64,000 nucleotides of DNA from Rutstroemia sp. NJR-2017a BVV2. Lineage: Eukaryota > Ascomycota > Leotiomycetes > Helotiales > Rutstroemiaceae. Positions 22,101 through 61,700 of the stretch are shown piece by piece. The first letter of the stretch is position 1, and each line of letters begins with the position of its first letter. Under the pieces are notes generated by a model. That model was not told the DNA's origin. It saw only the letters and a program-made list of their open reading frames with translations, and did no database searches. The DNA lies in contig NJPS01000062.1 of NCBI GenBank assembly GCA_002946415.1, positions 1 through 64,000 on the forward strand, given 5' to 3'. The position numbers were made by a program, and so were the translations under genes.

Positions 22101-22283
22101 TTATTATTACTAAATAGAAAATATATTATAAAAGTTATTAATAATTACTATATATCGAGGATCTCTTAGAATAAATCTATTTTTATTATTTAGTAATTAA
22201 GATAATTAAAGATAAAAAAGGATAAATAACTAATATTATTTAGATAGTTATTAGTTAGTTGATAAAATATAAATTATTAATAA

Positions 22284-31040: not shown

Positions 31041-32108
31041 ATGGCAGACCCCTTAGCTCGCACAACCCAGGACCTTCCTGAGATTATCTATGGGACGGCA
31101 TTCAAGTTCGACAAAAGCAAGGTCCTCGTGGAGGCAGCTCTTAATGCGGGGTTTAGAGCTATCGATACGTCAGGTAGCAAATCTGCATATCGAGAAAACC
31201 TGGTTGGGGAGGGGATCGCAGCAGCAATGGCTACAGGAAAGTTCCAGCGTAGCGATCTTTATGTGCGTTCCCTAATTTCCAGCGTCTCATCGCCTGACTT
31301 CATTTGGCTCTCTATTATTTTTTGGCACCTCTGTAACCATCAACTCCGGAAACGCTAACTAGAAAATGTATGGGGATTTTAGATCCAGACAAAGTTCTCA
31401 CCACATAAGCCAGGCAAAGATCCAGCCTTATATCCATATGATTGTACCAAAAGTATCCCGGAGCAAGTTGCGCAGTCAATTGAGTCGTCGCTCGTTAACC
31501 TTGGCGTTACCTACATTGACTCGCTGGTTTTGCATTCGCTTTATGCAGATGTCGAGGACACTTTGGTGGCCTGGAAGGCCATGGAAGCGCTCGTCCCATC
31601 CAAAGTCAAATCTATTGGTCTCTCCAATGCCGATCTGGAATCAATTCGTAAAGTATATGAGACTGCTACAATCAAGCCTACCGCCGTTCAGAATCGCTTT
31701 GTGATAGACACGGTTGATCGACCTAACCCAAAATTTCCTGCTGACCTACCGAATCCAATTGTCCCTTGGGATAGGGACGTTCGGGAGTACTGCCTGAGAC
31801 ACGGGATTGCTTATGCACCTTGGGGAATGTTATGGGGAAGTCTTGATGAACTTGATGGTCCTGATCTTGTGTTGACTAAGGCTGGGAAAGAGTTGGGGTT
31901 CTCGAGAGAGATCGCGTGTTATGCACTTATGAGAAGTTTACGTGGTTGTCAGATCACTCTTCTGTGTGGCACCTCTAGTGAAATTCACATGCGTGAGACG
32001 CTGGCAGGGCTTAGCAAGGTGAAGAAATATATTGAAGAGAGTGAAGAGAATGCAAAGAAGTGGCAGGGTTTCGTGGCTAGTTTGAAGGCAATTATTGATG
32101 ATGCTTGA
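31041..32108 (+). CDS. aldo/keto reductase
   Basis: Two exons, 31041-31262 and 31383-32108, predict 315 aa. The 120-nt intron has donor GTGCGT and acceptor TTTTAG, with CGCTAAC shortly upstream, and the join reads SDLY-IQTKFSPH. The AKR catalytic tetrad is visible: Asp42 (AIDTSG), Tyr50 (SAYREN), Lys78 (QTKF) and His125 (LVLHSLY). Later family segments are VKSIGLSNAD, VQNRF and the NADPH-binding end (CGTSSEIHMRETL). The reaction is NAD(P)H-dependent carbonyl reduction; the substrate is unknown. It is the first gene right of the AT island and may be the edge of the secondary-metabolite region or just its neighbour. Confidence 0.85.
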
Positions 32109-33403: not shown

Positions 33404-34480
33404 ATGGATATCGAGGAAGAACCATTTCTGGGTAATGACCACCCTAGCGAGGATTCCCACGACTCTTTTCAGAAGAGACCGAGACATGAGAAAAGAACAT
33501 GGATTGTTATTTTCAGCAAAATAAAACCGAAGAATCTGTTTCAGTGGAACTCGGTGGCTGTCATGAATGTATTCGCAATTTTGGTTAATATGTACTGGGC
33601 TTACGCTACTTGGGAGAAACTTGTTGTGATCGATCATTATTGTCCTACAATTCCTTACTGTAAGTGAACCAAATTACTTCACCCAGGAAGATGTTCTTAG
33701 GTTAGAAATCATTGTGAACTCAATCACTCACGATCTTAAGCTCCGGCAACTTCGGCGCTTCGGTGGGAACAGCAGTCTTACAATTACCATGGCCACACTC
33801 CTTATGGTGGAGAGCTTGACACCCCCGAGCTGAATGACGCCTGGAATGAATTGAAAACTTGTATGATTCCCATTCATAATAGCTTTCCTGCACTAATTGA
33901 CGTGTTACACAGACGAGTTCATTCGTCTCACGAAAGAAGAGCTGGAACGAGTTCAAGGCGTTAGGTCAGAGTCTCTCATGCTGAAGAATGGAGGGTATGT
34001 AGGAACGATGAGGATTTTTGAGGAAATTCAATGCTTGGTTAGTAACATATTCCTCTACCGCATAAAAAATACTTCAATTGCTGAACTCTTCAGGATTGGA
34101 TGAAGCGCGAGTGGAAAGCAGATCGTGCAGAGAATAGGAATCAGTTAGGTACGGCTGGACAAGAACTGTGTGACAATGTGTTGGTTGCTGATGAATAACT
34201 ATTTCTAGATTACTGCTTGAGCGTTCTACGAGATGGTGCTATGTGCAAGGCTGATCTTACGGTGGGATCTCTGTACTGGGGCCACAAAGAAGGAAGTCAA
34301 ACTCCCAGACCAGATGCCTCGCGATCTTGCGTCAATTGGAAGAGCTTAGAGAACTGGCTCATTCATCGCCGGCTATCATCGAATAAGGCGGTTGATGTGA
34401 AAGTCGTCACGTCTGACGGCCGACTGGTAGATGTCAATCTGAACAGCGGTGTCTTTACCTCTGCTGGAGAAAAGAACTGA
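33404..34480 (+). CDS. UstYa-like (DUF3328) protein with eroded HxxHC motifs
   Basis: Five exons (33404-33659, 33741-33860, 33913-34037, 34094-34148, 34209-34480) predict 275 aa in one frame. One N-terminal membrane helix is seen (FQWNSVAVMNVFAILVNMYW). The UstYa landmarks follow: PYSPA, TPYGGELDTPELNDAWNEL, the GGY segment, and GAMCKADLTVGSLYW followed by RSCVNW. UstYa-family enzymes oxidise side chains and form ether cross-links in fungal peptides, using two HxxHC motifs. Here the first is EEIQC and the second QLDYC, so the usual His residues are lost and the activity is doubtful. Exon 3 is 125 nt, as in the paralogs at 35622 and 46593; exon 4 is 55 nt against 70 nt in those two. Confidence 0.82.
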
Positions 34481-35621: not shown

Positions 35622-36715
35622 ATGTTTCTCAACATACCAAATTGGCTGCCACGTCTTCGCAAGCCAGTCTACCAGACAGTCGATGGCAGCGCCGAAGATG
35701 ATGGTAGTATCGACGGGGGCAGTGACAAGTCACTGTACCACAATACTAAATTTTCAGGGAGAAGCTCAGACGGAAAAGAGACACCGGCATCAGTCGTTGG
35801 AATATTCCTATATACACCTTGGCTTTCTCTTCTCAGTCTGTCGCTCATCGCCATCACAATCACATCGTACGTGTTTGTGAACCAACGTATTGAATTTATG
35901 AAGCATTTTTGCCCCGATCTTCCTTACTGTAAGTTGCAATTGAACTCAGATCTCCTCGTCTAATAGAGGCTGACGAATGGGAAAAGCGCCGCATATTACA
36001 GGTTTCAAATACAAACTTGATATCATGAATTTGGGGGGCTACAATCCTTATGGTGGTGAGCCAGGACCAGAGGTTGACGAAGCTTGGGACAATCTACTTG
36101 GTAGTAAGTAAGCTGTGTTGCCGGTCGATTAACGACTCTTGTGCTCACCTGTATCAAGAGAGGTATTTTCGTGCATCGGAGGAGGAGATGGCTCACTTCG
36201 GTGAATTATCCGCCGACTCGGTAGCTTTGGAGGACGGCGGTTATGTTGCTCAGTTGAGAGTATTCAATGAACTACAATGCATGGTACAGTCTATGGTCTT
36301 TCGATATAATCTGGACAGCTTAATGACGTATCTTATTCTAGGATTGGTTCAAGCGTCAATTTGGAAACCTAGAAGTGAGAGCAATCGCCAACTTCACTGA
36401 GCACGACAGAGGCATGTCTCTATTCTCTCATTATGATACTGTTACTTCGTGCTGATTCTTACAGACCATTGCCTCAATATTATGCTCAAGGGTGTTCGAT
36501 GTAGGGCAGATACAACACTCTCAGGCTGGTTCTTGAGAGACGATAATATTCATAAACCTCTCATTAACAGATGGCAAGCTGAGCACGTCTGTGTTGCGTG
36601 GGATACTGTTGATAATTGGCTGGGACCTCGAGCCATTGGTTCTTCGGAGTCTGTTTTGACGAAGAATGGAAAGATGTCCTTTCAGAACATGCTTTTGCAT
36701 ACTCGGGGTCATTAG
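35622..36715 (+). CDS. UstYa-like (DUF3328) protein, paralog with GC-AG intron
   Basis: Five exons (35622-35928, 36002-36103, 36159-36283, 36342-36411, 36465-36715) predict 284 aa. A membrane helix (PWLSLLSLSLIAITITSYVF) is followed by HFCPDLPYC, NPYGGEPGPEVDEAWDNLL, EDGGYVAQLRVFNELQC, DHCLNIMLKGVRCRADTTLS and AEHVCVAWDTVDNWLG. Motif 1 is NELQC and motif 2 DRDHC, so both HxxHC motifs are incomplete. The fourth intron (36412-36464) begins GCATGT and not GT; the paralog at 46593-47606 has GTAAGT at the same position, so it is a GC-AG intron. The donor of intron 2 could also be 4 nt earlier, in the same phase. Its closest relative in the window is the gene at 46593-47606. Confidence 0.8.
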
Positions 36716-37213: not shown

Positions 37214-38119
37214 CTAACTCATCTTCACACAATGCCCAATAACCCTTGACACAGTTGCAGGCCGCTCGGTCAATGGAACATCCAGCTCATTCAACAATTT
37301 ATTACAGTGAATGACATGGCCATAGTCATATGCTCTGAAGTAGACATAAACATCCTTCTCCCCATCCTTCACTCTCATACTCGCACGATGCATAATGCGC
37401 TGGAGGTACAGACAATGTGCCCTGTGATAATAGGTATCTGTCCAGATATCATCGAACTGCCCCAGAACTTCAGCGCTCTGTTCGAGCGGCTCGGTTCTAT
37501 TGCTCCAGCGCCACCAGGGCCATGTGCCAGCACCCCCTGCAATGACATATGTCAGCGATGGGGACTGAGTGGGAGGAGCTATCAAGTTAAGAAGCCAGCG
37601 GGGCATGGCGGCCATTCAGTAGCAGTGAAAGCAATTCAGATGGGTTTAATCTGCTTCAGAAATGTACATACGTGTAGGTGCTAACTCAGACAATTCTGAT
37701 GTAACATCGTCATGAATCTCTGTGTCCAAACATGCCGGTGGCGTCCAAGCAAATGTCATAATATCAAAGATGCATCCAGCCATCGCAGCATCCTCAAATT
37801 TCTCACCACAAGTAAGAAGCTCGCCCGAAGCAGTATATTCGAATCCAGATAGTTGTGGAAACCCTAGGGGTGGTTCTGACAGTTGGAATTTGTGATCATT
37901 GTGAAATCTAATGGAGAAGAAGCCAAGAACAATCGTAAAGACCATGAGCAATAGCCCGGTATAGGCAAAGGCTCGGTTCTTCAAGGCGTCTCGAAATAAC
38001 TGTGGTCTTTTGAATGGAAGTTGGTGTTCGAAAAGGAACCGGTCGTCGATGGTCAAAGGAGAAACCCCTTTGTGGCTTTCCCGTCCGACCGAAGGGGAAC
38101 GCAAGTCTAAGGGGGACAT
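37214..38119 (-). CDS. membrane protein with paired HxxHC motifs, second UstYa-like family
   Basis: Two exons, 38119-37672 and 37536-37214, predict 256 aa. The 135-nt intron has donor GTATGT and acceptor ATTGCAG. The in-frame region upstream of 38119 looks non-coding, so I start at the ATG before SPLDLRSP. Layout: cytosolic N-terminus, one membrane helix (FAYTGLLLMVFTIVLGFFSI), a CxxxxxxAxxxGCxFDxxxxxWxPxxC stretch (CGEKFEDAAMAGCIFDIMTF), then YHRAHCLYLQRIMHRASM and HVIHCNKLL. The two HxxHC motifs are spaced as in UstYa, but the rest resembles the two genes at 38708 and 40335 more than UstYa. I infer a luminal oxidase acting on the peptide product; membership of PF11807 is unverified. Confidence 0.75.
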
Positions 38120-38707: not shown

Positions 38708-39475
38708 TTAAGAGTATTGAGCTGAGAGCCCGTCCCATAACCTCTGCGCACGTCTGTCCACTCTTTCACAAGCAGGATAAATCATATCTGCCTCCGTAAC
38801 AATCGTACTGTTTGGCAACCTGCAAACCCTTCCCTCGTCTTCACAATCTGACAACAATATATTCTGACAATGCATGGTGTGACGATAAGTCCTCGCATGC
38901 TCATCTATCCACCCAGTCTCATACGCCCTATGTTGTTGCCGCCAAACAAACATGCAGTGCGTCTTGTGGTATCTCCAGGTAAGGTACAGGTGAGACTCTC
39001 CCTTACGTGCCTCCTCAACTGAAACGGTCTCATTGCCGTATTCACTAGTATAGAATGTCCATGGTTCGCGAGCAGCGAATTCGTCGACCAAAGATTTGTC
39101 GTAGCATTTAGGAAGCTGCCAAGCGAACGTTATCAAATCAAAAGAACAGCCGCGTTGTCGAGCAGTTATGGGATCGGCTCCGCATGATTTCCAACTCGTG
39201 TGTGCTCTATCGACCATATAGATCGGAATAGGAAGGAATAATAATGAGCAAATGATTCCGCTTAGGACATATCGGCATATTGAGCGCCTCTTAGAAGAAA
39301 CGTCGCTCTCGGGCTTCTCAAATCGTAGCTCTGTTTCTGGATGTAGTGATTCCGAATGTAGTGGTTCTCTTTTTTCCGATATCTTCTCGTATATTTGAAC
39401 CGGTCTTACTGAAATCCTCAATTCTGATAGAAACCGACTGAGGTAACTTTTGTGCTCGGTTGGAGGACTCGCCAT
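38708..39475 (-). CDS. membrane protein with paired HxxHC motifs, second family
   Basis: A single exon from ATG 39475 encodes 255 aa. After a charged N-terminus there is one membrane helix (YVLSGIICSLLFLPIPIYMV). Then come CGADPITARQRGCSFDLITF, the WQLPKC Cys, a WTFYTSEYG segment, YHKTHCMFVWRQQHRAYETG (HKTHC) and YRHTMHCQNILL (HTMHC). Both His-Cys motifs are intact. It is a clear paralog of the gene at 40335-40994 and a more distant one of that at 37214-38119. A role in oxidative tailoring of the cluster's peptide is inferred from the UstYa-like motif pair and from context only. Confidence 0.8.
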   Translation of the reverse strand: MASPPTEHKSYLSRFLSELRISVRPVQIYEKISEKREPLHSESLHPETELRFEKPESDVSSKRRSICRYVLSGIICSLLFLPIPIYMVDRAHTSWKSCGADPITARQRGCSFDLITFAWQLPKCYDKSLVDEFAAREPWTFYTSEYGNETVSVEEARKGESHLYLTWRYHKTHCMFVWRQQHRAYETGWIDEHARTYRHTMHCQNILLSDCEDEGRVCRLPNSTIVTEADMIYPACERVDRRAQRLWDGLSAQYS

Positions 39476-40334: not shown

Positions 40335-40994
40335 ATGTCAGTTATGGATGCTTTCCCGGAGGAAAAGTTTGAAGACGACGAAAGAAGCGTCTTTCTACCG
40401 CATGTTGAAGGGACCACGGTTCAGAGGCATAGCTCGGAAAACCGGGCAGCAAATATCCTACTTTATACCCTCTTGTGCATATTGGCAAGTGCGCTTGTAG
40501 CAGTTGGAACCGTGGCAGTACGACTTGGGAAAGACTCGCACCACCATCATCAATCTTCCACAGTTCTCTTGGAATGCGGGAACAATCCCACTGAAGCTCG
40601 TCAATTGGGCTGTGTGTTCGACGAGATAAGTTTCACGTGGGATCGCCCCGCCTGTTTCAACGCGAATCTTTCCCAAGAGTTTCGCCAGCGATTTGCTTTT
40701 CAGTACTTTGCAGATTGGGAAGGAGAGGAACAGATCCCCAGTGAAGTAGTTGCTCTCGGCGAGCAAGATCTGAAATCGACTACCGAGCAGCATCTCATCC
40801 ACTGCGTCTATGTTTGGAGGAAATTTCACTCTGCCTATAACGCTGGATTGCCGATTGACTCCTACATTGGAAATCTCAATCACACTCATCATTGTGGAGA
40901 GCAGTGGATCGAGCAGGTTCGGACTCCGCATAACGTGTCATCCATCAAGGTCAAAATCTTCGTTAAATATGCCTCGTGTGCTGTAAGCAGATAA
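40335..40994 (+). CDS. membrane protein with paired HxxHC motifs, second family
   Basis: A single exon encodes 219 aa. One membrane helix (NILLYTLLCILASALVAVGTV) is followed by CGNNPTEARQLGCVFDEISF, WDRPACFNANLSQEF, HLIHCVYVWRKFHSAYNAG (HLIHC) and LNHTHHCGEQW (HTHHC). The order and spacing match the protein at 38708-39475. It is 36 aa shorter, ending soon after the second motif. It lies next to the P450 and in the same direction, so the two may be co-regulated. Confidence 0.8.
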   Translation: MSVMDAFPEEKFEDDERSVFLPHVEGTTVQRHSSENRAANILLYTLLCILASALVAVGTVAVRLGKDSHHHHQSSTVLLECGNNPTEARQLGCVFDEISFTWDRPACFNANLSQEFRQRFAFQYFADWEGEEQIPSEVVALGEQDLKSTTEQHLIHCVYVWRKFHSAYNAGLPIDSYIGNLNHTHHCGEQWIEQVRTPHNVSSIKVKIFVKYASCAVSR

Positions 40995-43709: not shown

Positions 43710-44833
43710 CTAAGAGGTTTTGAGCTTCACATTTCTTAGAGGGGCGAAACTCTTATACACACCAGTCCATGGATGAACAATCATCTCCTTGAAAGGAAGC
43801 ACGCTGTGGTCTTCAAGGAAGGAATTCAGTCTTTCTTGATTTACACAAACATGTGGTGCGTGCTCCACGATCTGGGGAACTCTAACTCCTTCTTGCCATT
43901 CAAACATAAGGAGTGTCATGTCTGCGTGGCATAATTCTGATTGACGGAGCCTAAAAACAAAATTATTTAGCATAGAAATTACGTTCCTATCAATTTCCTG
44001 CTTACACGTCGAGGCAGTGATCTAGAAATCATCAGTACCAATTCTCAACACGAAAAAATGTAGTTCTTACCCATGTGGGTGGCTGTCAGTCTGGGAGGGT
44101 GTGGTGCGAACAGCTTTGCAGTATCTGGATAGTAGGAGGGAGTGATGTACTTTCGAATAGTATTCTGTTGTCTCATTAGCATCTCATCTTGTGGTTCTAA
44201 GACAAGTAGATTGACCAAGCAGTGCAAGTTATGGAGAAAGCTGAAGGTTGCGTAGGTCCCCCCTTCAGCATCTTGAAAATCAGTCTTCTTATGAGCAGGA
44301 TTACTCGTATTTTGCCAATGAAATGGCACGCGGATATTGTAATCTTGGAGATGTTAGTTCTCATGTGGAGTGAAGTGATAGAAAGATCATCCTGAACTTT
44401 CCTTTCAACATGCCCATCCAGGCGTCATCCAACTCGGGGCGCGGGTCTCCTCTGAAAGCAGTATCATGTACCTGGAAGAGATCATCGTAGGTTCTAACTT
44501 CCCACTCTACAGCAGGGGAGATCCAATCTGTATTTCTTAATCTCTGATTCTCTATAGAAAGTGACAGGTTTAGATTGGTAACTAACCGGCATAGGGTAAT
44601 CGAGCTGACGGGACTTGGACATCTTGGACATGTGGAGGGACAATCGAATTCTTGGTCAGAGCTGTCATCAGCAGAGTGACATTAACAAGAAGAAAGCCGA
44701 CATTGAAGGTGAAAAACAGCCAACTTCTCCGTCTTCCTTGACCATTTGTTTCGTCGAACTTCTCATCATTAGCAAGAAAGGGTAAATCCTCCATAGAAGA
44801 ATCCCGAAACTCTTCAGATGCAACTTTTCCCAT
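43710..44833 (-). CDS. UstYa-like (DUF3328) oxidase with both HxxHC motifs
   Basis: Five exons predict 300 aa: 44833-44587, 44527-44402, 44343-44071, 44021-44006 (a 16-nt micro-exon) and 43950-43710. A membrane helix (WLFFTFNVGFLLVNVTLLMT) is followed by DWISPAVEWEVRTY, FRGDPRPELDDAWMGML, TYATFSFLHNLHCLVNLL (motif 1 HNLHC), THMDHCLDVLRQSELCHADM (motif 2 HMDHC) and HVCVNQERLNSFL. It is the only member of the UstYa group here with both motifs intact, so it is the best candidate for the oxidative macrocyclase. Oddity: intron 2 (44401-44344) starts with GA (G|GAAAGT) and not GT, although phase and homology demand a splice there. This is either a rare GA-AG intron or a mutated donor. An in-frame start further upstream (44890) is possible. 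Confidence 0.8.
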
Positions 44834-45718: not shown

Positions 45719-46140
45719 ATGAAGTTCACTCAAACCATATTGGCAGCAGTGCTGGCTTTTTCAATTGGGGCCCAGGCTGCTCCTGCGGCTGTCGCAATCC
45801 CACATCCATTGATTGCTATCGCAGAAAGGAATGGTAAACTGACCTTGGACATAACCTCGATATTCACTGACACTGCTGAAAATTAGCCGTAAATGCCATC
45901 CTGGAGCGTGGAACAGACGCCGATGCCGCCAACAAAGTGTACAAGCGAGGCACTGACGCGGATGCCGCCAACAAAGTATACAGACGAGGCACTGATGCGG
46001 ATGCCGCCAACAAGGTGTACAAGCGAGGCACTGACGCGGATGCCGCCAACAAGGTGTACAAGCGAGGCACTGACGCGGATGCCGCAAATAAAGTGTACAA
46101 GAGAGGTACTGATGCGGATGCGGCCAACAAAGTATACTAG
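45719..46140 (+). CDS. RiPP precursor peptide, six GTDADAANKVY cores (dikaritin-type)
   Basis: Two exons, 45719-45833 and 45887-46140, predict 122 aa. The 53-nt intron runs 45834-45886 (GTAAAC...CTGCTGAAAATTAG). Residues 1-20 are a signal peptide (MKFTQTILAAVLAFSIGAQA, cleavage before APAA). A short leader follows (residues 21-46, ending NAILER). Six identical 11-residue cores GTDADAANKVY start at residues 47, 60, 73, 86, 99 and 112. The first five are each followed by KR or RR (Kex2 sites) and the last ends at the stop codon. This is the precursor plan of ustiloxin, phomopsin, asperipin and epichloecyclin-type RiPPs: secretory-pathway entry, Kex2 and Kex1 trimming, then UstYa-type oxidation of an aromatic core residue, here probably Tyr. 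It is flanked on both sides by UstYa-like genes. Confidence 0.93.
45910..46137 (+). repeat. 39-bp core repeats of the precursor gene
   Basis: Six units start at 45910, 45949, 45988, 46027, 46066 and 46105; the last is 33 bp. Nucleotide differences between units are silent within the core (GGA/GGC/GGT for Gly, GCC/GCG/GCA for Ala, GTG/GTA for Val). The only protein difference is KR against RR in the linker of unit 2. Because the unit is a multiple of three, other frames are also open across the array; the frame joined to the signal peptide is the real one. Confidence 0.93.
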
Positions 46141-46592: not shown

Positions 46593-47606
46593 CTAATGTG
46601 CCTTCATGCGTGACATCATCTCCTCTTGTGACATCAATCCATTCTCCGACCGAATCTTCTCCTTTGCTGGAATCTTTCGGTCTTCAAGCCATCTCAAAAC
46701 ACTGTACCAATCAACGCAGACATGTTCAGCATTCTCCCGATTAATCAAGGGCCTGTCAAAAGTCTCATTCTTCTCGAGAAACAAAGAGGAAACTGTCACA
46801 TCTGCTCTGCACATGACACCTTTAAGTATAACATTGATACAGTGATCTAAAGCATTAATTTTAGTAATTGGAAGCCAGAAGGAGCGACAGATTCAACTTA
46901 CCGCGGTCAATTTCCGTGTAATTGGAGTGGGAATAGACCTCGGGATTTCCATATTGACGTTTGAACCAGTCCTGGAGAAAAATGAACCATGAACGGGTCA
47001 CTACTGAAGTAGGCTTACCATGCATCGCAATTCCCCAAAGACTCTCAACCCAGCTATGTAACCGCCATTTTCTAATTCGATGGAGTTCTGATCGTACTCT
47101 TCAAATCTCATCATCTCTTCCCTCGAAGCGCGGAAGATTTGTTCTAAAATATTGCTTTAGCTTAGGGCCATAATGTTCTTGAACCCCGTGCTTACTACTT
47201 AGCAGTCTGCTCCACGAGTGCTCAACAACCTGCCCCGGTGCTCCACCAAAGGGGTTGAATCCATTGAGATTCATAATCTTGGTCTCAAAACGAATTCCTG
47301 TTACCTCCGGCTCTTTCATCAAATCAGTACATTCTTTAATTTATTTCAGTGAAAATACTCACGGAATGGTAAGTCTGGACAATAGTGCTTCTTGAATTCC
47401 ACATGTTGATTCACGTGCCACAAAAAGATGAGATTCCCTACGATAAATGACAGGGTTATGATGGAAGGAACAGGTGAGTGTATGACTTTTCCACAGGTAG
47501 ATAAGAACTTCTTCCAGTATATCTCGGTTCTTGCGGCCAACGATTTGATTGTTGTAGTTGAAATAGAATGTTGCTGGCGCCCACGGGTAAGTGTTAAGGG
47601 ATGCAT
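46593..47606 (-). CDS. UstYa-like (DUF3328) protein, paralog of the 35.6-kb gene
   Basis: Five exons (47606-47363, 47312-47196, 47143-47019, 46971-46902, 46846-46593) predict 269 aa. A membrane helix (SIITLSFIVGNLIFLWHV) is followed by HYCPDLPF, FNPFGGAPGQVVEHSWSRLL, ELENGGYIAGLRVFGELRC, DHCINVILKGVMCRADVTVS and AEHVCVDWYSVLRWLED. The middle exon lengths (125 and 70 nt) are identical to those of the gene at 35622-36715. The motifs are GELRC and DRDHC, so again the first His pair is lost. The in-frame region upstream of 47606 has no ATG. Two such motif-poor paralogs were probably made by duplication within the cluster. Confidence 0.82.
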
Positions 47607-48320
47607 TTCTGCACGAAGATCAAGTTCCAGCCGCCAGAAACCCAACAACAAGAACAGTTGACAGTACAGACAGCGATGCGGCTTAAGCTCTGTGGTGGAT
47701 GGAAGTGAGCGTAGCTTTCCACAAATCGCTCCACACTCAGAAACTCTGGATTTTCGCCTCCCACAATTGACGTGCGCAGTAGCAATTTTCCCTCGTCCTT
47801 GGTGGCAGCTGCCTGGGTGCTTCCTCTACTCAATAGATGGATGGGGGTGTTTTGCTATCAAGGGTGTTCCTGTATGAACTGTGGACAAGCTTTTAGACCA
47901 AGCTTGCTCAAGCTTTACTCAACGGTTCGGTTGGTAAGGAGGCCTGGGCCTGCCTAAGCGAGCCAAAGATTAACCTTGTCGCGGCGAGCGGTTAATTCAG
48001 ACTTCCAGATAACGGCAACTGCTTTGCGCTTTGTCATGCAACATCCCTGACGGCTCTACTGCATTCAGGGCACTGTAGATTACTCTTAATTGCCACGTCG
48101 TTTTCTTCCCCACCTTTTAGGCGGTGTGTGGTGATCCTTGTTACCGACCGTTTACTTACTAGGGTGGGGGGGTGTCTGTCCCTTATCTCAATTCTTATTA
48201 TTGTTGCCCAAAGGGGAAGGTTACAATGATAGAAACATTGTGGGTAAGAAGATAAGAGATAGAAGTGTTAGACCCACGAACCGTTAGAGAGAACATGAGC
48301 TTACAATAGACTCACACCTC
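47607..48320. promoter_or_regulatory. divergent promoter, UstYa-like / dioxygenase genes
   Basis: About 700 bases between divergent starts; no gene recognised. It is the natural boundary between the RiPP-type genes and the dioxygenase-NRPS pair. Confidence 0.4.
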
Positions 48321-49400
48321 ATGCCGAGAAGAAAAATACCGATGTCGGTGGTTGACCCTTCAAATCGCAACACCCAAGACACGTCCCTATATTGGCCGTA
48401 TATACAGTTTCTAAGTGAAAAAATGCCGGCAACACTCTTATCTCATCCGTCTACAGACTCCAATGAGCAGAAAGCACAAAATATCGGGTCTAAATGGAAG
48501 TCCAACGATGCCGCACCGTTCACTCGGAGTGCTTTACTTGGGGTCCTGGAAGGCAAGGTTCCCGTGATCAAAGTACCTTCGTATGTCTCGGCGGATCTCA
48601 GCAACCGCATTGTCCAGCACTTACTTCCACATTTCACCTCGTATCTACATGCAACCGGCCCAGCCGTCGAGAAAGTTGGAGTTGCTCAATTTGAATTCCA
48701 AGCTCAGTCCGCAGAGGACTTCAAGAATCGTACTGGTGACGGTAAGTACTTCCCATGCTTGATGACGAGAGGAGAAAGCCGTATGCTAATCCCAAAATTA
48801 GAAAAAGAGAGATATTTTGATATGGCCGAAAAGATGAGTACATTGCATGGAAACATTGCGGATGTGGTTGGACAGAACATTTGGGCAAAAGTTGTCGAAG
48901 AAATTGCCGCATTGGTGCCGGAATGGGATGTATCTGTTGCTAGTGAAGTCAATGATCACGGAGAAGAACGGCGTTACTTCTCTGGAATATTCCGCAGTAT
49001 CAATGGCGGTACTCCACCGCATTGTGATTGGTGTCCATACGATACCTTGACTGAAGATTGGATTCTGAGCCGAATCACTAACCAGGCCGTGTTTAACTTA
49101 TATTTATCCCCCGTCGAAGGGGGTGGAACAACGATATATGATGTGCAATGGACGCCAGATGCCTTACAGTATCGAGATCCAAATTCGTATGGTTATGCGC
49201 GTGAGCTGGTGGAGGGACGGCAGAAGCAGGAATGGAAGCCTGAAGTGGGACAGTTGTGTATCTTCAATTCACGGAACATGCATGAAGTTGCACCGGTTGC
49301 TGCGGGATCAAAGGGCCCTCGTATAGCGTTGGCAAGCTTCATGGGGTTGTTGCCTGCTGAGGTAACAGGAGGGCGCCCACGGCTGATGTTTTGGTCCTGA
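48321..49400 (+). CDS. Fe(II)/2-oxoglutarate-dependent dioxygenase
   Basis: An intronless 359-aa frame. The double-stranded beta-helix iron site is visible: His234 and Asp236 in NGGTPPHCDWCPYD, distal His321 in NSRNMHEVAPV, and the 2-oxoglutarate-binding Arg334 in GPRIALASFMG. There is no signal peptide or membrane helix, so it is presumably cytosolic, with the NRPS. Such enzymes hydroxylate, desaturate or cyclise amino acids or peptides in fungal pathways. It lies 366 bp from the NRPS end, convergent to it, which suggests it supplies or modifies an NRPS building block or product. The precise subfamily is not recognised. Confidence 0.85.
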   Translation: MPRRKIPMSVVDPSNRNTQDTSLYWPYIQFLSEKMPATLLSHPSTDSNEQKAQNIGSKWKSNDAAPFTRSALLGVLEGKVPVIKVPSYVSADLSNRIVQHLLPHFTSYLHATGPAVEKVGVAQFEFQAQSAEDFKNRTGDGKYFPCLMTRGESRMLIPKLEKERYFDMAEKMSTLHGNIADVVGQNIWAKVVEEIAALVPEWDVSVASEVNDHGEERRYFSGIFRSINGGTPPHCDWCPYDTLTEDWILSRITNQAVFNLYLSPVEGGGTTIYDVQWTPDALQYRDPNSYGYARELVEGRQKQEWKPEVGQLCIFNSRNMHEVAPVAAGSKGPRIALASFMGLLPAEVTGGRPRLMFWS

Positions 49401-49766: not shown

Positions 49767-52700
49767 TCAGATCTTGACAGAGCCGTTATTAAAGTTATGG
49801 ACAAATTCCTCCGCAACAGTACCCATCTCGCTGATCCACTTCAAGATTCGATCCTGATGCTTCAGTGACGGATCCCACGTAACATCAAAGAGGATGTCAC
49901 TTCCTTCATTTCTGATTACGATCTCAAAACAAGATGTATGTCTTACATGAGCGGCAATCTGACCCTCGTCTCCATGCCTCGTGTCAGGCGTAGCCTTGAA
50001 AAGTGCATCTTCTCTCTCGAATTGTTGGTATCGCCCTGCATAATTGACAGTTACCTCCGCGAATTGATGATGTTTGAAGACCTTGATTCCCTTGTCATTC
50101 AAGTATCGGCTAGCAAAATAGTCTGTACCGCCATATGGAACTGAGCTGCGTATTAGAGAAACATGATCGAGAAGGTCCTCGACACTTGTTGCCAAAGGTT
50201 CTTCGAAGGAGACAGGATAGTTTGCTGTGAACCAGCCTACTGTACGAGATAGGTCAATGCTGCTATCCCAGGTATCACGTCCATGGGATACAAAGTAAAT
50301 GCTGGGAAGCCTGCGATCTTGAAAAACTCGACTGAAAGATTTAGCCAAGACGGCGAGGAAAATATCAGCCAGACTTTTCTCGACAAGGGAATCTTTTGAG
50401 GTGAAAAGCGCGGTTGAGTTGTCATTGCTCTTCAAACATATTCTCTTGGTAATGTAATCGGTCCGGAAAATGACCTCTGGATGATTAAGTCCCCAGTAGT
50501 TCAAGAGAGGCATAGGAATTTTGTAAGGCAATACCTTCTCTGGCTCCAGGTGTTCTTTTGCGTGTCTCCCTTGTTCTTCTGACCACTTTCGGAAGGATAT
50601 TCCATCACTCGATCTAGGATCCGTCAAGTTCCCGGAGAGAAGTTGCTCCAGGTCTTGGAATATAATTCTTAGAGATATCAAGTCTGACACTAGATGGTGA
50701 ACGGTGAGATACACAACCTGTGTAGACGGTGCAGAAAACAATCGAACTGCCAGTAACGGGCCTGATTGCATGTTGATAGAGGCACGAGCTACAGAAGTCA
50801 GGGTAGCAAAACCGTCTTGTTCCACATTCTCATATTCTTGGAAGTTGAGCGATCCAGTGACGTCTGCTGTCAGGGTTTGCTGCCACTGCCCGGGACCCAT
50901 GCATCGAAAGCGCGCGCGAAGCATTGAATGCTTGCTGATGATTGCCTCAAGGGCATCTTTCAATTCGCTAGCGGTGATCCTCTTGGTAAGTTCTAGTTGG
51001 TGATCAATTTGGTATAAGGAGTTTCCTTCGGGATAGATCTGGAAAAAGCTAGTTTGAATAGGAGAGAGCTGAAAAGGCACGTTCAACTCATCATCAACGT
51101 GACCATTCACTGTGTGACCATTGACGCCACTGTGACTCTTGAATCCATTCTTAAGTGGTGCTGTCATTGATGTAGACCGGAGGCTTTCGATATGTGCGCA
51201 GATACCAGTAAGAGTTTTGTGTCTCAAGATGTCTGATAAGGTCAAGCTTATACCAAGTGAGCGGCACTTTGACAGTACTTGCATTGCAGAGATAGAGTCA
51301 CCCCCAATTCTGAGGAAGTTGTCTCTTGACTTGATTGATTCAGGAGTTTTGTTTAATACTTGACCCCATATCCCTCGCAGTTGCGTCTCGAGTAGGCTGA
51401 CATGTCCGTCACTTTGGTCTGCTCCGTTTATCTTGGTGGCCCCCATGTATTGAGGGAGAAGATCAATCGCCATCGCTCGAAGCTTTCTCTTATCGACTTT
51501 TTTCGACATTGTCAAGGGCATCTTGGCCAAGGGTATGAACATGGAGGGGATCATGAATGTTGGCAGTGAGGCCTCGAGCCGCTGCTCTAGGTCGTCAATC
51601 AGAGCCACTATTCGCCGGTCGTTGATGGAATAGCACTCCGATCCAAGGTCCTCGCCATCTAACTTAACACAGATAAAAGCCACAAGTCTCAAAGGGCTAT
51701 TTGAATGAGGATCCGAGATTACATCCACCGTTGCATCTGTGATCTGGTTCGTCAAGTTGTTCTTCAGTTGATAATCCACCTCGCCAAGCTCAATGCGTTG
51801 ACCTAATGAACTATGATTAGCATGAAGTTTTCCCTGGAGTTATCATATACCGAAAGACTTACCTCGGATTTTGATTTGCTTGTCCTTCCTTCCCATATAC
51901 ACAATTGATCCTTCGGGCCCATAACGAACCAAATCACCTGTCTTATAAACTCGGCCAGTTCGCCCTTGTGTTAACCCGTGGCCATTCCTCAACCAGATCG
52001 GCGCTTCAAGGAAGACGGTAGATGACTGATCGTCCTGCTTATAGTATCCGCGGGCCATCATGTGAGCCTCCATCACCAGTTCACCGATAACACCGATCGG
52101 TGCCAGTCTGGTGTGATCATTGGCATCCACAATCCAGCTAACGGATCCGACAGCTTTGCCAACATCTGCGGGTTCCAAAACCGTCGAGCTGTCATTAGCT
52201 GCACACATGACGCAAAGTTCACTTGGTCCATAGACATTGATGAGTTGAACTCTATGCGACCATTTCTCCACATGATGTGCCGTAACAGGCTCGCCCCCAA
52301 GACAAAGGGTTTTCAAGGTGGGTACATGATCAGGATCTATGAGCTTCGTCACAGACGGTGTCAAGTGAGCCCAGTTTACTTCCATACGGTTGATAGCACC
52401 AGCTATATCACTTGAACGCTCGCTTTCAGAAGGAACACAAACACACCCACCAACGATAAGTGTTGTCAGTATATTCATGACACAATCATCGAATGAATAT
52501 GATGCAAATTGGAGGACCCTTGAAGAACTACTGATCCTGACGATTGGAATATGTGCAGTCGCGCTAGTACAGTAGGCGAAATGCTCTACAACGACGGGCT
52601 TTGGTGTTCCGGTGCTTCCAGACGTGAAATGAACATATGCTGGAACGTTGGTTCTTATCTGGACCTTCTTCCACGAATCCGAGTCCGGAAGCGACTGGAG

Positions 52701-55700
52701 TGTGGCTCTGGAGACAACAAAGGCGTTTTCACTCAGGCTAGAAGCAAGCTCTTCATTTGTTTCGGATGCTAGAACTAGGTTTCGGCCGTCAACCTGTCGT
52801 ATCAGAGCATCTAGACGAGGTCGCGGATGGTTCGAAGCGTCCAACGGAACAAAGGCTGCACCTGCTCTCAAGATTCCTAGCATTGCCACGACGGTCCACA
52901 TAGACTTTTCGAAAACCAGAGGTACTTTCGTTTCATGTCTCACACCGAGATTTACCAGATGACTAGCAAGTCGGGACGAGAACAGATCTAATTGAGCATA
53001 ATTCAAGTCACCATCCCACGACTGTACGGCGGCACAATGACTTCTCGTGACCACTTGCTCGCCGATGAGATTGTGGATTGTATCGTCGACTTTTGGGGGA
53101 GGAGAGCTATTCCATTTCCAGATTTCAGATTCGTCAGATGCCGTCATTATCGAGAGGTCTTTCAGATTCATGTCCTTAGAATCCAGAGTAAGCTTGTCAA
53201 TGACGGCTTCGAAGTGCCTAAGTAAGCGCTTCATTTGAATTGTCGTTATTCGAGTATCGTCAAAATAAGCTTTTATACCTATTTCCTCTACGCCTATTTG
53301 GCAATCAAGCGTTAGAGGGTAAGTTCGAAATGTTTGCTGACTCGTGACACCGATGGGTTCCAGAAGGGAGTTCCCGGAGTGTGGCTCTGCTTCAATAACC
53401 AAAAGAGTATCAAAGTCACACGTATCTCGGATATTTTGACCGATATTCATGATATTTTGCAGGCCAAAATATTCATGGGGAATGACTTTCGCAGCATCAG
53501 TGCGAATTCGGTCAACCATTTGAGAGACTTGTTGGCTATTGTCGGAAAACTTGGCACGGACAGGGACAGTAGTGAATGTCGGTCCGGCGATACTCATGAT
53601 GTCTGCTATCGGGGCTGTTCGGCCAGAAAGAACAGTACCAAAAACAACATCATCTGAGCCAGTGTACATACTCAGTAAAGTTGCCCAGGCGGTGCGCAGT
53701 ATGAGCGGCAACGTTGTATCAAAACCGTGGTTTCTCACAACCGGTATGTTGTAGGAAACGCACTGGTCTGGATTGGGCTCCGACATCACCCCACGACGGC
53801 GAGGGAAATTGGTACGTGTCGAGGATTCCAAATAGGTGCGCCAAAACTCTCGGCTTTTGTCCCGATCCTGTTGTTGAAGATATTTGATGAAGGTATTGTA
53901 GCTTACTATGGGTGCATGAAGCAAAACCGCTGAGTCCATGGTAGAATAGAACTGGGATATTGTTCTGGATAACAAATGCAAAGTGTACTCGTCATACACG
54001 GAGTGATGCTTGCTCCAAATGAATGTCTTTGGCCTTGTATTAATGATGGCCCATTTTGCAAGGCGCTTCCCTAAGGTCATATCAGAAGGCCTCGTGATGT
54101 AGTCTTCAATCGAATCTCCCATGAACCACTCGATATCGTCCTCAGAGAGGACGACTTGCATCAATTTGGAATTCCCAAGCTGCACAATTCGTGTCCGAAG
54201 AATAGGATGAGCTCGAAAAGTCAATTGACAAGCCCTCACAAATCGATCGATATCAACATCAACGGGCAGTCTATAGAGCTCCTGCGCTACATACGAGCCC
54301 GGACTAGAGACTGACAAAGCCATTAAGCCTTCTTGAAGTGGAGAACATGGGTATATGTCTGTAATCTGCTCTCTGGGGATTCCCCAACTGTTGACAACCT
54401 CGTCAATGATTCTCTGAGCTTTTGTCACACCACCAACAAGCTCGAAACCTTTGACGGGGACCGATTTCGTAGTATTGTGTATTTCTGTACAGATCAAGGC
54501 CTGCGTAGACAGTACAGGGTTTGAAAAAATCTCTGCGACAGTCAGAGATAACATCTGTGCTCGACAAATCGCTACCAATTTCCTGTTTACGCGGGGTAAG
54601 CAAATACTGGGTGATTAAATAAGACAAATGTGCAAACATACATGGCAATTATTGAGTTACCTCCAATACGAAAGAAGTTATCATCTACTCCGATTTCGTC
54701 TGGCTTTAAATTCAAGGCCTCCGACCATGCTTTACTAAGACGGATCTCAATCTCAGTGTTTGGAGGAACTCTCTGAACATCGGAAGCTATCGAAAAAGAT
54801 GACAAAGACTTCGTAGAAAGCGCTGATGCGAGATTCCGAAGCAGCTTCCGATCTAGTTTTCCTGCTCTGCTCAAAGGCATTTCACTGACGGGAATAATGA
54901 CCGACGGGATCATGTAACTTGGCAATTCATTAGCAAGTCTAAGTTTCAAGGCTGACAGAAGGCTGTCTTGTTTGGAATCCGTCTTCACGAAGATACTGGC
55001 ATTCGCAGTTGAGTCTCGACGATGGGTACTCAGAAACTGAATGAATGCAGCAAGTGTGTCAACCTTGTCCTCGCCTGAAGGCGTGATGATCTCTACAGCG
55101 GTAGCGATATTTGGCAAACTCCTCCTGTTCATAAAAAGTAATTAGTAAGGCTCCTGACCAAGATGTGGGTAAGAGGGAGGAAGAGATTGCAATAACTGCG
55201 TGTGGATTGAGGTATATAATATTTTCTCCAAATTCATAGAGAGAACAAACCTAATAGCTTCCTCGACCTCACTCAACTCAATACGCTGACCACGTAGTTT
55301 TACCTGGTTATCCTTTCTTCCGACGAAAAGAAGTCGTCCGTTGGAGTCATACTGAACCAAGTCACCTGATTTGTACATTCGTCGGCGGCCGTCCAGTCCT
55401 GGAAAGTCATCACTGTCGTCTCTTGTCCAGACAGGGTTTTCTATCCAGGAGTCGGAGACTTGATTGAGATATCCACGGGCGAGCGTCCTACCCTCAAGAA
55501 TCATCTCTCCGACGGCCCCAATCGGGAGTAGAATGTTATGATCTTGCGGATCAACGATCCATGCCGGAATCATTGGAAACCCAAGGCTATTTTTTGGTGT
55601 ATCTAAGCTCATCTCACCAAAGATACAAGTTGTTGTCTCCGCTGGGCCAGAGCATTGGAAAAGCCTGACTTTGCTCGCCCATTCATTTACAATCGCTTGG

Positions 55701-58700
55701 CTCACAGCTTCTCCACCGGTAACTATTGTCTCAAGTGTAGGAACATCTTCTCTTCGTAGAAGACTTAGAGTAGAGGGAGTTAGAAAAACCCAGTTAGCTC
55801 TCGTAGCGGCAATGGTCTCGGGAAGTTGATTCAGCTTCTGGTCCTCTGATGGAACAAGTACACAGCCTCCCATCTGAAGGGTGGTCAAGATATCGTAAAC
55901 CGCCATGTCGAAAGCATAAGAGCAAAACTGAAACACGCGCGAATCTTTCGTCACGTTCATTCCAGGCCCATGGCCCTGAGAGCTAGTGCAGACCGCCGAG
56001 TGAGAGAGTGCGATGCCTTTCGGTGTACCAGTGCTTCCTGACGTGAAAACAACACATGCCAAATTTTCAGGATTGACATTGTTAACAGGATCCTCCTTTG
56101 CGTCTGAGATCTCATTAAAGAGTCCCTCACAAACTACTATTGTTTTCATAAAAGTGAATTCAGACCGTTGATTTGCCGAGGTGAGAATAAGTGAAGCTCC
56201 AATCTCCCGGATCATTGTTTTCTGTCGCTCTATTGGATTCCCTGGGTCCATCAGGAGAAACGCTCCTCCCGCTTTCATTACCCCTAGTAGTCCTATAATC
56301 GTCCACTTTGACTTTTCGAAACACAGGGGAACAACGATATCTGGCCCCACTCCATAGGATGACAGATGATGAGCTAGGCGTGTTGAGAATTGATCGACTT
56401 GTGAATAGGTGAAGTCTCCATCCCAGCCGGCAACGGCAATGGCATCTGGTTGATTCAAGACTTGTTTGTGGATAATGCGGTGTACGCAGTCATTGATTGT
56501 AGGTAGCACGCTAAGTCTTTGATTCCAGCTCAATATCTCTTTGCAATCTTGTGGTGACCTGACGTCGATGTCTTGAAGTCGCGCATCTCCCTTGGATGGG
56601 AGTTGGTTCATCACATGCTGTAATTGTTGCAGTATGCGTCGCATCTGGAGCTGGTCTATGATTTTGGAGTCAAAACTTACGTCGAATACTAGATTGTCTT
56701 CCGTATCCGGTGTGACCTGGATCATTATAGCGTATGGGTTGAAATTCGATCTAAAAAGGGCAGTCTACAGTTAGCACGACTTCACTATAGAGTAAAAGTA
56801 TTGGAATAAGGAATTAAACAAAATTAAAAGTGATTCTTACAGTCCACGAGCAAAGTGACCATTGATGAATAGTTCCTTGGGAAAGATGTCTCCTTCCGGT
56901 TGAACCACCAAGATGGACTGGAAAAGAGAAGAGGGCGGCGTCTTTCCGTATACACTTCTTAGTATAGATTCAAGACCGGAATGCTGAAAGTTCCTTAGTC
57001 CCAAAATCTGAGATTGAATACCATGCAGAAATTCGGACACCGTGCTAGAACGGTCAAACTTGACTCGTAGGGGAACCGTTGTGAAAAGGGGTCCGATGAT
57101 AGCCTCTGCACCATCCACAGGTATGTCTCTTCCGCTCAGGGTCGTACCAAAGATGACATCTTCACTGTCCAGATGTTTTGCGATAACCAGCGACCAAGCA
57201 GCTTGGACCAGTATGGACACTGTAAAGCCAGATTCTCGCCAAGACTGAAGCGGAATGCGGTGGGTGATAAAACTATCAGCGTGGGGTCGGTAGTCATCAG
57301 AAGGAAGTTTAGGGAATGACAAGAAGCTAGAAGCCTCGTTATTGCTCAGCTGAGCTTTCCAGAATAATGAGCACTCTTGATTATCAACCGCGCGTTCAAG
57401 GTACTGGATAAACAGGTTGAACTCAACTTGAGGTTTCCACTCAAGCCCTATATATACTCTTTTGATTGCGTTGAGGATCAAACCCAAAGACCACTACGCA
57501 TGATCAAGCTGTCAGCAAATATTTACTTAGAAGAGGGTTTGGGGTGAAGTTTTGAGTCCCGAGTAAGATTGACTTCAATCATCTCCGGATGCCATCAAAT
57601 CTTGCGATTTTACTCGGAAGCCATTCTGCATTATGATCTTTAGCTCTCAAATACTCACACCATCGTATATGGAATGATGCACACTCCAAATGAACAATCT
57701 TTGATCTGAACTTTGAACAATCTCCCATCGTGTCAAAGGAGTGTTAGTTGACATTAAATCATGCTGGTCAGACAGGAGATCGTCGTCAAGACTCTGATCA
57801 CTTTTCCACGCTATTTTACTGTCGCAGACAACTTGCAGCAAGTCTGATTCCAATTGCACAATTCGAGTGCGAAGGATTGGTACAAGTGAATGAACTGTCT
57901 CGCATGCTTTACGAAATCGATCCACGTCAATGAACTTTTGCAGAGCACACACAATCTGGACCACGTACATGCCAGCATCTTTGGCAGAGAGTGCCATGAT
58001 GCCAGCCTGGAGAGGGCTGCATGGATAAGCGTCCTGTATCAGTAAATCCGTACCAACAGCAGAAGTCACCTGACTCTTCAGATTTGAACCATCTCCAGAT
58101 TGTAAATCTTGCCTGATCAACGAGAACTTCTCAGCAGCAGTTGTAGACACTTTATGGTCTGTCTTCGCATCTTGTTTAGCTGCTTCTGCCATATCAGACA
58201 GTATTGGAAACTGAAATACTTTTGCCACAGTCAGGCTAAGATTCAAATGAGACGCTTTTAATAGTGCAACTAATTTCATGGCGAGGACAGAGTCGCCTCC
58301 GGAATGTATGAAATGACTCTTTCGACCGATTTCCGACGAAGGAACTCCCAGTGTCGTCGCCCAACAATTCTGTAGTGCCGCTTCTAATGGATTCAGTGGT
58401 TCGGCCAAGTCCACAGGCCTTATGGTGTCAGACAAAAAGAGAAAGGATCCGGATTCCATCAGCGAACCAATTTTTCTGAGCTTTGCCCTGTCCACTTTCC
58501 CAGAAAGACTCATAGGGAAGTCCTTGACCGGGATAAGTACCGTTGGGGCCATGTATGCAGGAAGCCTGTCTAGCAGACGTGAACGGAGTGTAAGGCTCAT
58601 TTTGGCAAGCCAAGAGCTTGCCGCTTCTGTGCCTATGTCATCGCAAACGATGAAAACGACTAAGTTTCCGTTTGAGTTACCCCCCATCAACGGGACCATG

Positions 58701-61700
58701 TCGACAACAAGACTTGTTTGCGTATCAAGTACTTTACGAATTTGCTCTTCAACGTGACCAAAGTCCACTCGCTGGCCTAATACCTTTCCTTGGTTATCTG
58801 CCCTGCCGAGGAGCTTAATTGTACCCTCTGTACTATACCGAGCTAGATCCCCAGTCTTGTAGAGACGCCTGACACCATACTTTTCAATCGGTAGCCATGT
58901 TGGATTCTTTATGAAGCTTTTTCGCGTGTTTTCTTCTAGGTTCAGATATCCACGAGACATAATTGGTCCCTCGAGAAGAAGCTCTCCAACGGTACCAATG
59001 GGTTGGAGCTTGTTGTGGTCCGCTGGTGAGACAATCCAGGAAAAACCGGCAACAGAGTTTCCTATATTTCCGAGCTCGGTGTCCTCTCTGAGTTGCCGAG
59101 AGTGACTCTTAATAGCGATTTCAGCAGGGCCGTATTCATCTAGTAGCACGACATAATCAGTCCATGCCCGCTTATTCACACTTGTCGATGGTTCACCGCT
59201 TAGACTCAATACTTTCAGGCTAGGAAGTGAGCTCGGATTTAATGTTTTGACTAATGACGGTGTCAATTCGGCGTTAGAGATTTTTGCTCTGTTGATATAG
59301 CCAGTAAGGTCATTGCTTCGTTCTTGATCCGATGGCACGCACACAGTGCCGCCAATAAGCAAGGTGGTCCAGATGTCATCCATCGAGACGTCGAAGTTGT
59401 ATGATGCGAATTGCAGGATTCGAGATGACTTGTTGCGATGCAGGGTCGGGAAGCGGGCCAATGCGCCTGAAAGGTACGATTTATGCTCATGCACTATCCC
59501 TTTCGGTTTACCCGTGCTCCCAGATGTATGAATTACATAGCATATGTTTGTCGAAGAAACAGCGACGTTTGCAACCGCAGAACAATCATGCGGTAAAGTC
59601 TCAACGAAGGCGGCGTTGATTACCACATTTACTACTCCTGGGCTCATAATTTCAAGACTCTGTGAGCTTAAGACAACTTTAGCTCTAGCATTCTCGAAGA
59701 TTGACGTCCTCCAACTTTGAGGATAGGCCATGTCTATTGAAGCGAAGCCAGCGCCCGACTTCCATACAGCAAGCATCGAAACAATCATCCATTTTGACTT
59801 TTGAAATACCAGCGGTACGATATCGTCTGGTTGGATATCATAAGAACTAAGCAAGTATTCAGCTAGTCTTGTAGCAGTGTCGTCAAGTTCTTTGTATGTG
59901 AATTCTCCATCGTGAGCAGAGACGGCAACTGCGTCTGGCTGTTCCTGGGCTTTTGCGTAATAGAGCTCGTGCGCGCACGAATTCACAGTTGGTGGCAGCG
60001 TTTCATTCCACTGCCAGAGCTGACTCTTCTCTGCCTCGCTAAGATGATCCAGGTTGCCAATAGTAAGAGTTTGATCTCCACACAGCTGATGTACTATGTG
60101 CTCGAATTGGCATAGAATATATGGCATCTGACTTTCCGATATGACATTGCTGTCAAACATCGAGATCAATCGGGCGCCATGCTCGTTCAAATTGCACTCC
60201 AGGTTTAAGCTATAAGTTGACCATGAGTTCTTCATCTCAATCTCCACCTTCTCTCCGAGAAACTCCGGAGGGTTTGCATTACTCTGAACAATGAGCAAGC
60301 TCTGGAAAGCACTCGCGGCACTGAGTTCAGGGGCTAAACGGCAAATGTTCTGAAGTCCAATCTGCTCATGGGGTATCATTTCGACAGCCTGCTTTTGAAT
60401 GTCAAGCAAGAATTCCGAAACAGTGTGTTCATGGTTGATCTTGACACGAACTGGAACTGTGGCGATCGTCGGCCCAATAACTGCTTCAATGCCCTGGACA
60501 TTGGCACTGCGACCATTAAGAGTCGCTCCGAATAGGACATCGCTTGTGTTGATGTACCAGTCTAGTAGGATTGCCCAGGCAGCGCGTAATATGTTGGGTA
60601 CGGTTATTGAACTGCCCAAGGGCCTCAGGAAACGTATTGTTTTTTCGAGATTTCCTCGCGGACTTGGTCGGTAATTAGGCTCTGGCAACGCCGGGAATTG
60701 CACGTGACATGGCTTCTCGAACTGCTTTGTCCAGTATGACTTTTCGAATTCTTTGCTTGAAACCGCAAGGTAGTTGATAAAGCAATTATATCCCGGATCT
60801 TCAAGTACGGCATTTTGAAGGTAAAGTGACTCCAGTCTTTGAATGGTACGTTCCATGGACCAGGCCTACAAACTAGTTGTTAGTCGAAAAGTTTCTCAAA
60901 ACTGGAAGATTGGACTTACATCGGTCAAAGCATGATGTATAGTGCAATGAAATCTAGCCCCCCCGTTCGGGTCTTCTCTTACAGCGTATCGTACCAGCCT
61001 TCCTCTCTCTGTGGCAAGTTCTCGCTTACATTCTTCCTCCCACTGTTCAGGACTGTTGTATGTAGACCAATGTGTTTCCTCGTGTAGGACAACTTGAAGA
61101 AGCCCTGACGAAGTTTGAACAAATCTGGTGCGAAATATTGCAATCTGTCGGAAGAGTTCGTTCCAGGATTCCTGGAATCGTTCAACATCTGAATGAGATG
61201 GGAGCATGAAGCTTAGATGAACAAGGTAATCACCGGGTCTTTTCAGTGCGAGTGCTATGAGACCTTCTTGCAATCCAGTAGAAGGATACGCATCCTCAAC
61301 ATCAATCCAAGCTTCTCCCAAAGACTCCGTGATCTCCTGTTTCATAATTTCTAGGGAATTGGAATCTCCAAGAAGATGAAACCGAGATACGGGAACCTCA
61401 GTTGAGACTCCATGCAAAGTAGTAACTGTAGAAGCCATGTCTTCTAGTGTTGGGTGTTTAAAAATTCCCTCCACGGTAAGTGAGACTCCAAACGATCTGG
61501 CTTCAGAGACCAGACGCATGGCGTAAAGGGAGTGTCCGCCAAGGGAGAAGAAGTTGCTGTCAAGCCCAATGAGTTCTTTCTTGACATTCAATAATGATGA
61601 CCAGATTTGAGCTAGAATTTCCTCGTAATTTGTTGCAGGAATTCTTCCCGACTTTGTTGGCTCTAAAATTGATAGAAGCTCATCTGCGGCGAGCCTTGAG

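Follow-up and report, generated by a model that had tools for sequence, protein, structure and literature searches.

Only five fungal RiPPs of the UstYa/dikaritin type are counted in a 2022 review (PMC10512285), against thousands of predicted Kex2-processed repeat proteins (KEPs) (PMC7329392), so that any precursor whose enzymes are clearly identifiable offers a lead that can be tested. In the account given by PMC6514808, AprA, the precursor of asperipin-2a, was found by searching for UstA-like precursors together with UstYa/Yb-type genes. Asperipin-2a resembles the locus described here in pairing a repeat precursor with a UstYa-family gene (the DUF3328 cyclase AprY), and also in that, according to PMC6514808, none of the four genes in its cluster encodes a tyrosinase. 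It differs in its core, FYYTGY as opposed to (AA)NKVY, and in its enzymes, since we found four UstYa genes (U1, U2, U4, and U5), three of them without the motif-1 histidines, as well as three other double-HxxHC genes (Y1 to Y3), a cytochrome P450, and 2-oxoglutarate (2OG) oxygenases. Victorin, from Cochliobolus victoriae, likewise comes from a multi-core precursor, and its ring is reported to include the aromatic residue at the core's C terminus (PMC9233826), a role that we propose for the C-terminal Tyr here. In victorin, however, a C-terminal Phe is joined to an internal Leu and the product is chlorinated (PMC9233826), whereas the unit here contains neither Phe nor Leu. Ustiloxin B and the phomopsins share a KEP precursor and UstYa genes with our locus but are described as using a tyrosinase, UstQ or PhomQ, and a repeat of the EDYXI type (PMC6514808, PMC6339444), in place of which the repeat here is GTDADAANKVY. 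KEPs with nearby UstYa genes are an established type of system, and new KEPs are common, 2560 of the 7878 reported in the Umemura survey being without a homologue (PMC7329392). Judged from their sequences, the peptide and the make-up of the neighboring enzymes at this locus look new.

The window is the whole stretch analyzed, 64 kb long (bases 1 to 64000 of contig C59 in a 43.4-Mb genome). It contains a gene that probably encodes the precursor of a dikaritin-like fungal RiPP of the UstYa type (Table 1). Read with a predicted splice, this gene encodes a KEP of 122 amino acids in which a signal peptide and a short leader precede six identical copies of GTDADAANKVY; the initial annotation had described this arrangement, with dibasic sites after the first five units, and the translation bears it out. 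Units 1 to 6 are followed in order by KR, RR, KR, KR, KR, and the stop codon, which gives five dibasic sites. The leader ends in NAILER, which places LER before the first unit, and the lack of a Kex2 site at this position counts against the RiPP reading. Tandem Repeats Finder returned a period of 39 nt and 6.1 copies. The signal peptide has a K followed by a hydrophobic run (maximum 11-residue hydropathy of 2.53) and, by reading, an AQA-A cleavage-like site. Enumeration of every GT..AG pair spanning 39 to 130 nt left two open joins, of which one was convincing; its intron carries a CTGAC branch-like site 20 nt before the 3' end. The other join, with a donor at 45791 (GTCGCA), was rejected because the donor is poor and most of the leader would go. 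KEPs are recognized by an N-terminal signal peptide, at least three near-identical repeats with KR, RR, or KK, and a Kex2-type protease in the genome, and all of these are found here, the protease as a PF01483 P-domain gene on contig C5 (E = 1.3e-15). The six-unit Kex2 architecture and single plausible splice support the RiPP reading, as does the P-domain gene, given that ustiloxin B is reported to be nearly lost in Aspergillus oryzae without KexB (PMC4740483).

Table 1. Coordinates of the precursor gene, neighboring genes, and related loci (window positions unless a contig is named)
Feature	Position	Strand	Remark
Precursor gene, ATG	45719	+	From sequence
Precursor gene, stop codon	46138-46140	+	From sequence
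Precursor exon 1: signal peptide MKFTQTILAAVLAFSIGAQA and leader	45719..45833	+	Sequence, hydropathy, splice enumeration
Precursor intron, 53 nt, GTAAAC...TTAG	45834..45886	+	Predicted
Precursor exon 2: leader end AVNAILER, six GTDADAANKVY units, stop	45887..46140	+	
GTDADAANKVY unit starts	45910, 45949, 45988, 46027, 46066, 46105	+	
Aldo/keto reductase (AKR)	31011..32108	+	Near AT-rich block; pathway membership uncertain
U1, UstYa (PF11807)	33404..34480	+	EEIQC at motif 1, DYC at motif 2
U2, UstYa (PF11807)	35622..36715	+	NELQC replaces HxxHC; start approximate
Y3, related protein	37214..38119	-	HRAHC and HVIHC; probably one intron; model approximate
Y2, membrane protein	38708..39475	-	HKTHC and HTMHC; no Pfam match
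Y1, membrane protein	40335..40994	+	HLIHC and HTHHC; no UstYa Pfam match
Cytochrome P450	41281..43104	+	Heme motif; terminal exon boundaries approximate
U4, UstYa	43710..44833	-	HNLHC and HMDHC across predicted intron; introns by eye
U5, UstYa (PF11807)	46593..47606	-	GELRC, without motif-1 histidines
2-Oxoglutarate/Fe(II) oxygenase	48288..49400	+	Pathway membership uncertain
NRPS (A, T, C domains)	49770..63966	-	Possibly core of separate overlapping cluster
ABC transporter	C59:65.4-69.2 kb		Just past the window and the NRPS
Second KEP of genome	C28, about 704.7-705.9 kb (L026:1315-2475)		20 AVDADNAIVYPADAKR-type units
Third KEP of genome	C41:1075227-1075982 (L021:5227-5982)		Seven QTTEFGPYPEDDYANSKR-type units

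The initial annotation took all 11 residues of the unit as the core and considered the product likely undescribed. The second point stands within the reach of our searches, each of them limited, in which GTDADAANKVY was not found elsewhere in the protein database, the same genome, or the literature. Core strings were absent from the literature searched (supplementary KEP tables lying outside that search), shorter strings matched papers that were unrelated as judged from their titles, and NKVY was absent from the papers listed. The first point needs revision: the unit is identical six times, but part of it is probably not core. Among 7990 candidates sharing most words, a protein search with the precursor returned only P0001, a protein from a Chaenotheca gracillima MAG, at an E-value (7) that is not significant by itself. 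P0001 nevertheless reads as a KEP, with the repeats ADADTASNYRVERR, GTDADTATNYEVTKR, and ADADAATNYS, and its kinship with the precursor would rest on architecture and a common DADxA stretch and not on the E-value. Its annotation as "Transcriptional activator, partial" is likely mistaken, given its DADxA KEP repeats. A profile search with both sequences recovered P0001 itself and nothing more among 7988 candidates scored, which suggests that few members of the family exist in the data covered; together with the E-value of 7, this is a point against the RiPP reading.

Searched against this genome, P0001 gave one match (E = 0.037), a second KEP on contig C28. In the C28 KEP, as in the precursor, DADxA follows the Kex2 site and the core contains VY; UstYa matches (PF11807) lie at a distance of about 2.3 kb, at C28:701.9-702.6 kb, and a P450 fragment is close by. 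Unlike the precursor, this KEP has its signal peptide and repeats in a single open frame, a longer and variable C-terminal part, and about three times as many units. A third KEP, on contig C41, is accompanied by UstYa genes and by a double-HxxHC gene of the Y type, all no more than about 6.5 kb from it. It was found, along with the window precursor, by KEP scans covering the window and loci L001 to L015 and, with looser settings, L001 to L008, L011 to L015, and L020 to L025, L027 and L028 lying outside both; the C28 KEP came to light by similarity instead. These two further loci with UstYa genes nearby, and the Chaenotheca KEP with its DADxA, support the RiPP reading. Since the DADxA-like stretch after the Kex2 site is common to the precursor, the C28 KEP, and P0001, while the ends of their units then diverge, DADxA or GTDADA(A) is probably a spacer or recognition segment, and the product is likely formed from the C-terminal NKVY or AANKVY. 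This comparison suggests a way to tell spacer from core when mining KEP precursors.

UstYa genes are the nearest recognized genes on both sides of the precursor: upstream U4, whose ATG is 886 bp from that of the precursor, and downstream U5, at 453 bp, with U1 and U2 farther away. This matches the published peak of DUF3328 genes adjacent to KEP genes (PMC7329392) and supports the RiPP reading, as does the presence of Tyr in the unit, since Tyr is reported in 65.6% of the repeats of DUF3328-linked KEPs compared to 38.2% of the others (PMC7329392). That UstYa/DUF3328 proteins are described as copper enzymes, AprY among them (PMC12435403), is further support. The UstYa type in the broad sense is defined by a UstYa/DUF3328 gene close to the precursor, at least one UstYa with the HxxHC(x)nHxxHC copper site, and a cross-linked or otherwise oxidized core in the product; the first two are present here, the copper site in U4. 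The broad dikaritin reading is well supported. The stricter ustiloxin/phomopsin set is not present: none of the 24 genome matches to tyrosinase (PF00264) and none of the 4 to S41 peptidase (PF03572) at E ≤ 0.01 fall on C59, and the repeat is not of the EDYXI type. The dikaritin layout claimed by the initial annotation thus holds as a KEP with UstYa genes on both sides but, with no tyrosinase or S41-peptidase match on the contig, is asperipin/victorin-like and not ustiloxin/phomopsin-like, and the adjoining NRPS could claim some of the enzymes. Its statement that HxxHC oxidases and a P450 surround the precursor holds for the P450 and for UstYa genes as such, but only one of the four PF11807 genes, U4, has HxxHC, and the other intact double-HxxHC proteins (Y1 to Y3) are not UstYa by Pfam. 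The lack of a tyrosinase match on the contig weighs against the RiPP reading.

What is unusual about this locus is the Y family and the set of UstYa genes depleted in histidines. U1, U2, and U5 have lost the first HxxHC copper motif, and U4 alone among the four flanking genes carries the complete HxxHC(x)nHxxHC copper site. U4 is also the weakest PF11807 match of the four, its fragments reaching 24.4 and 26 bits where the cut-off is 25. This loss in three of four genes, and the position of U4 at the cut-off, argue against the RiPP reading and leave the cross-linking enzyme as U4, one of Y1 to Y3, or absent. We surveyed UstYa motifs in the window, the loci of 30 of the 85 genome matches, and further stretches. 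In this sample, 19 motif-2-like places were found, and at four of them (L013:5281 included, which holds an internal stop and looks spurious) a motif 1 was missing at distances up to 420 nt. HxxHC was present at 12 of the 15 places with motif 1, and the remaining three are U1, U2, and U5. U4 was missed by the survey pattern, and its motifs were read by eye. By reading, U2 has a probable GC-AG intron at 36370-36470, directly before its DHC motif. One UstYa of the genome (L002) matched no PDB sequence at E-values up to 1. Five open frames between or edging U4, the precursor, and U5 matched no Pfam family. One of them, a 194-aa frame at 45002-45583 (-) between U4 and the precursor, is a further point against the RiPP reading.

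Cyclochlorotine is a peptide made by an NRPS. The cyclochlorotine hydroxylase CctR, a DUF3328 protein, has a transmembrane helix and a lumenal HxxHC(x)nHxxHC, as do U4 and, by motif only, Y1 to Y3. According to PMC12435403, this motif binds two copper ions in each CctR monomer, and activity is lost when the conserved His and Cys residues are replaced by alanine, whereas several of these histidines are already missing from the natural sequences of U1, U2, and U5. Since dimerization is reported to be required by CctR, ApnU, and AprY (PMC12435403), U1, U2, and U5 may, by analogy, be non-catalytic partners. Whether UstYa proteins that lack copper ligands act as such partners is a wider question raised by this locus.

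A second such question is whether the Y1-Y3 family represents an unrecognized branch of copper oxidases. No PF11807 match was found for Y1, Y2, or two pieces of Y3. Y2 has seven homologues at E ≤ 1e-5, one of them from Oculimacula yallundae (Helotiales), and an alignment of 10 Y sequences, from which Y3 is absent, shows no variation at the His and Cys residues of the two motifs. A transmembrane-like stretch seen by reading in Y proteins is the best-predicted helix of the Y2 AlphaFold model, which is poor overall (pLDDT 46). Aligned with hhalign, Y and UstYa place motif over motif at a probability of 1.6% (E = 0.031), from shallow alignments of 10 and 5 sequences, a similarity that is not significant. 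Queries with Y1 and Y2 gave eight and seven genome matches, respectively. One relative, at C41:1071 kb, has UstYa matches on either side of it, at 1069 and 1072 kb, and is separated from the C41 KEP by about 4 kb, so that Y genes are present at two of the three KEP loci identified (the window and C41); none of the genome matches to these queries is on C28. Weaker matches at C2:94 kb (also on C71), C2:102 kb, and C39:596 kb have no listed UstYa match nearby.

If the gene is a RiPP precursor, its protein would enter the secretory route by way of its signal peptide, and the Kex2-type protease would cut after KR/RR to give six copies of GTDADAANKVY(KR). Trimming would then remove the basic residues as well as the acidic GTDADA(A) spacer, and the C-terminal NKVY would be oxidized by membrane UstYa proteins, by U4 alone or together with the remaining UstYa proteins and the Y proteins. 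The most likely link would be from the Tyr side chain to a neighboring side chain, giving a possibly cyclic product that could be tailored further by the P450 and 2OG oxygenases. We infer the use of the intron, the trimming, the cross-link, and the identity of the acting enzymes; the locus predicts a small Tyr-containing product. A more detailed version, in which U4 is copper competent, U1, U2, and U5 are substrate-binding or dimer partners, Y1 to Y3 form a second HxxHC(x)nHxxHC family of membrane oxidases that is also present near another KEP of the genome, and DADxA is a per-unit recognition or trimming segment common to otherwise different precursors, is offered as a tentative proposal that may well fail in one part or another.

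It could instead be that the gene is a genuine KEP yielding an unmodified secreted peptide, signal- or hormone-like in the manner of alpha-pheromones, and that the UstYa genes serve the NRPS or another product. We consider this unlikely, but several observations lend it some weight. DADA could be an XA-type trimming spacer of the kind cut by Ste13, XA dipeptides after Kex2 sites being described as Ste13 signatures (PMC6339444), although the unit starts with GT, which is neither an XA nor an XP dipeptide. In the Umemura survey, a DUF3328 gene is near 1758 of the 7878 KEPs and absent nearby for 6120 (PMC7329392); the precursor here, however, has UstYa genes as its nearest recognized neighbors on each side, and the two other KEP loci have them nearby as well, one with a similar DADxA unit. 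The histidine depletion of three of the four flanking UstYa genes would also fit an unmodified peptide. Furthermore, the NRPS adjoins, and more UstYa genes lie beyond the window at C59:71-77 kb, so some UstYa genes may serve the NRPS and not all of them need serve the precursor, which is a further argument against the RiPP reading.

The precursor sits within a biosynthetic run that extends on C59 from 31 to about 77 kb and comprises the AKR, UstYa, Y, P450, precursor, 2OG, NRPS, and ABC transporter genes, followed beyond the window by a second 2OG oxygenase and the additional UstYa genes. An aromatic prenyltransferase of the Orf2 family (E = 4e-97) was found between UstYa genes at C59:74653-75609 (L012:653-1609). 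Such a run might be taken for a hybrid cluster, with ribosomal peptide and NRPS in one pathway and the 2OG oxygenases, ABC transporter, and UstYa proteins in common, but adjacency is the whole of the argument for it, and we think it very improbable. We know of no characterized fungal hybrid ribosomal peptide/NRPS pathway.

Variation among the repeat units provides additional support for the RiPP reading. Among the six 33-nt cores, 9 of 33 columns are variable, every one of them at a synonymous third position, which shows that the unit peptide is under purifying selection. Pairwise comparisons gave 58 synonymous and 0 non-synonymous differences. At least 10 changes are needed to explain this variation; the naive chance that all would be synonymous is ~5e-7, and an all-synonymous outcome occurred in 0 of 20,000 neutral simulations of core changes. 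Only one of the six frames, that of the precursor, is free of non-synonymous differences. Coding in the other frames was rejected, the best alternative (antisense) having 53 synonymous and 5 non-synonymous differences. That the repeat is open by chance, or is a decayed precursor without a product, is hardly credible: the repeat does leave several frames open, antisense included, but the all-synonymous pattern belongs to the precursor frame alone, and the signal peptide, splice sites, and dibasic sites are intact.

Elsewhere in the window, an AT-rich, RIP-like block at 19000-31000 (12.4% GC over bases 20001-30000) separates DUF3435/FunK1 genes from the biosynthetic genes. A NACHT/WD40 gene at 8858-12910 (+) contains about 15 similar 129-nt WD repeats with 90% matches, and a HET gene is located near it at 4561. 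Across the genome, near-identical matches on the contig pairs C2/C71, C50/C74, and C25/C74 suggest duplicated stretches in the assembly.
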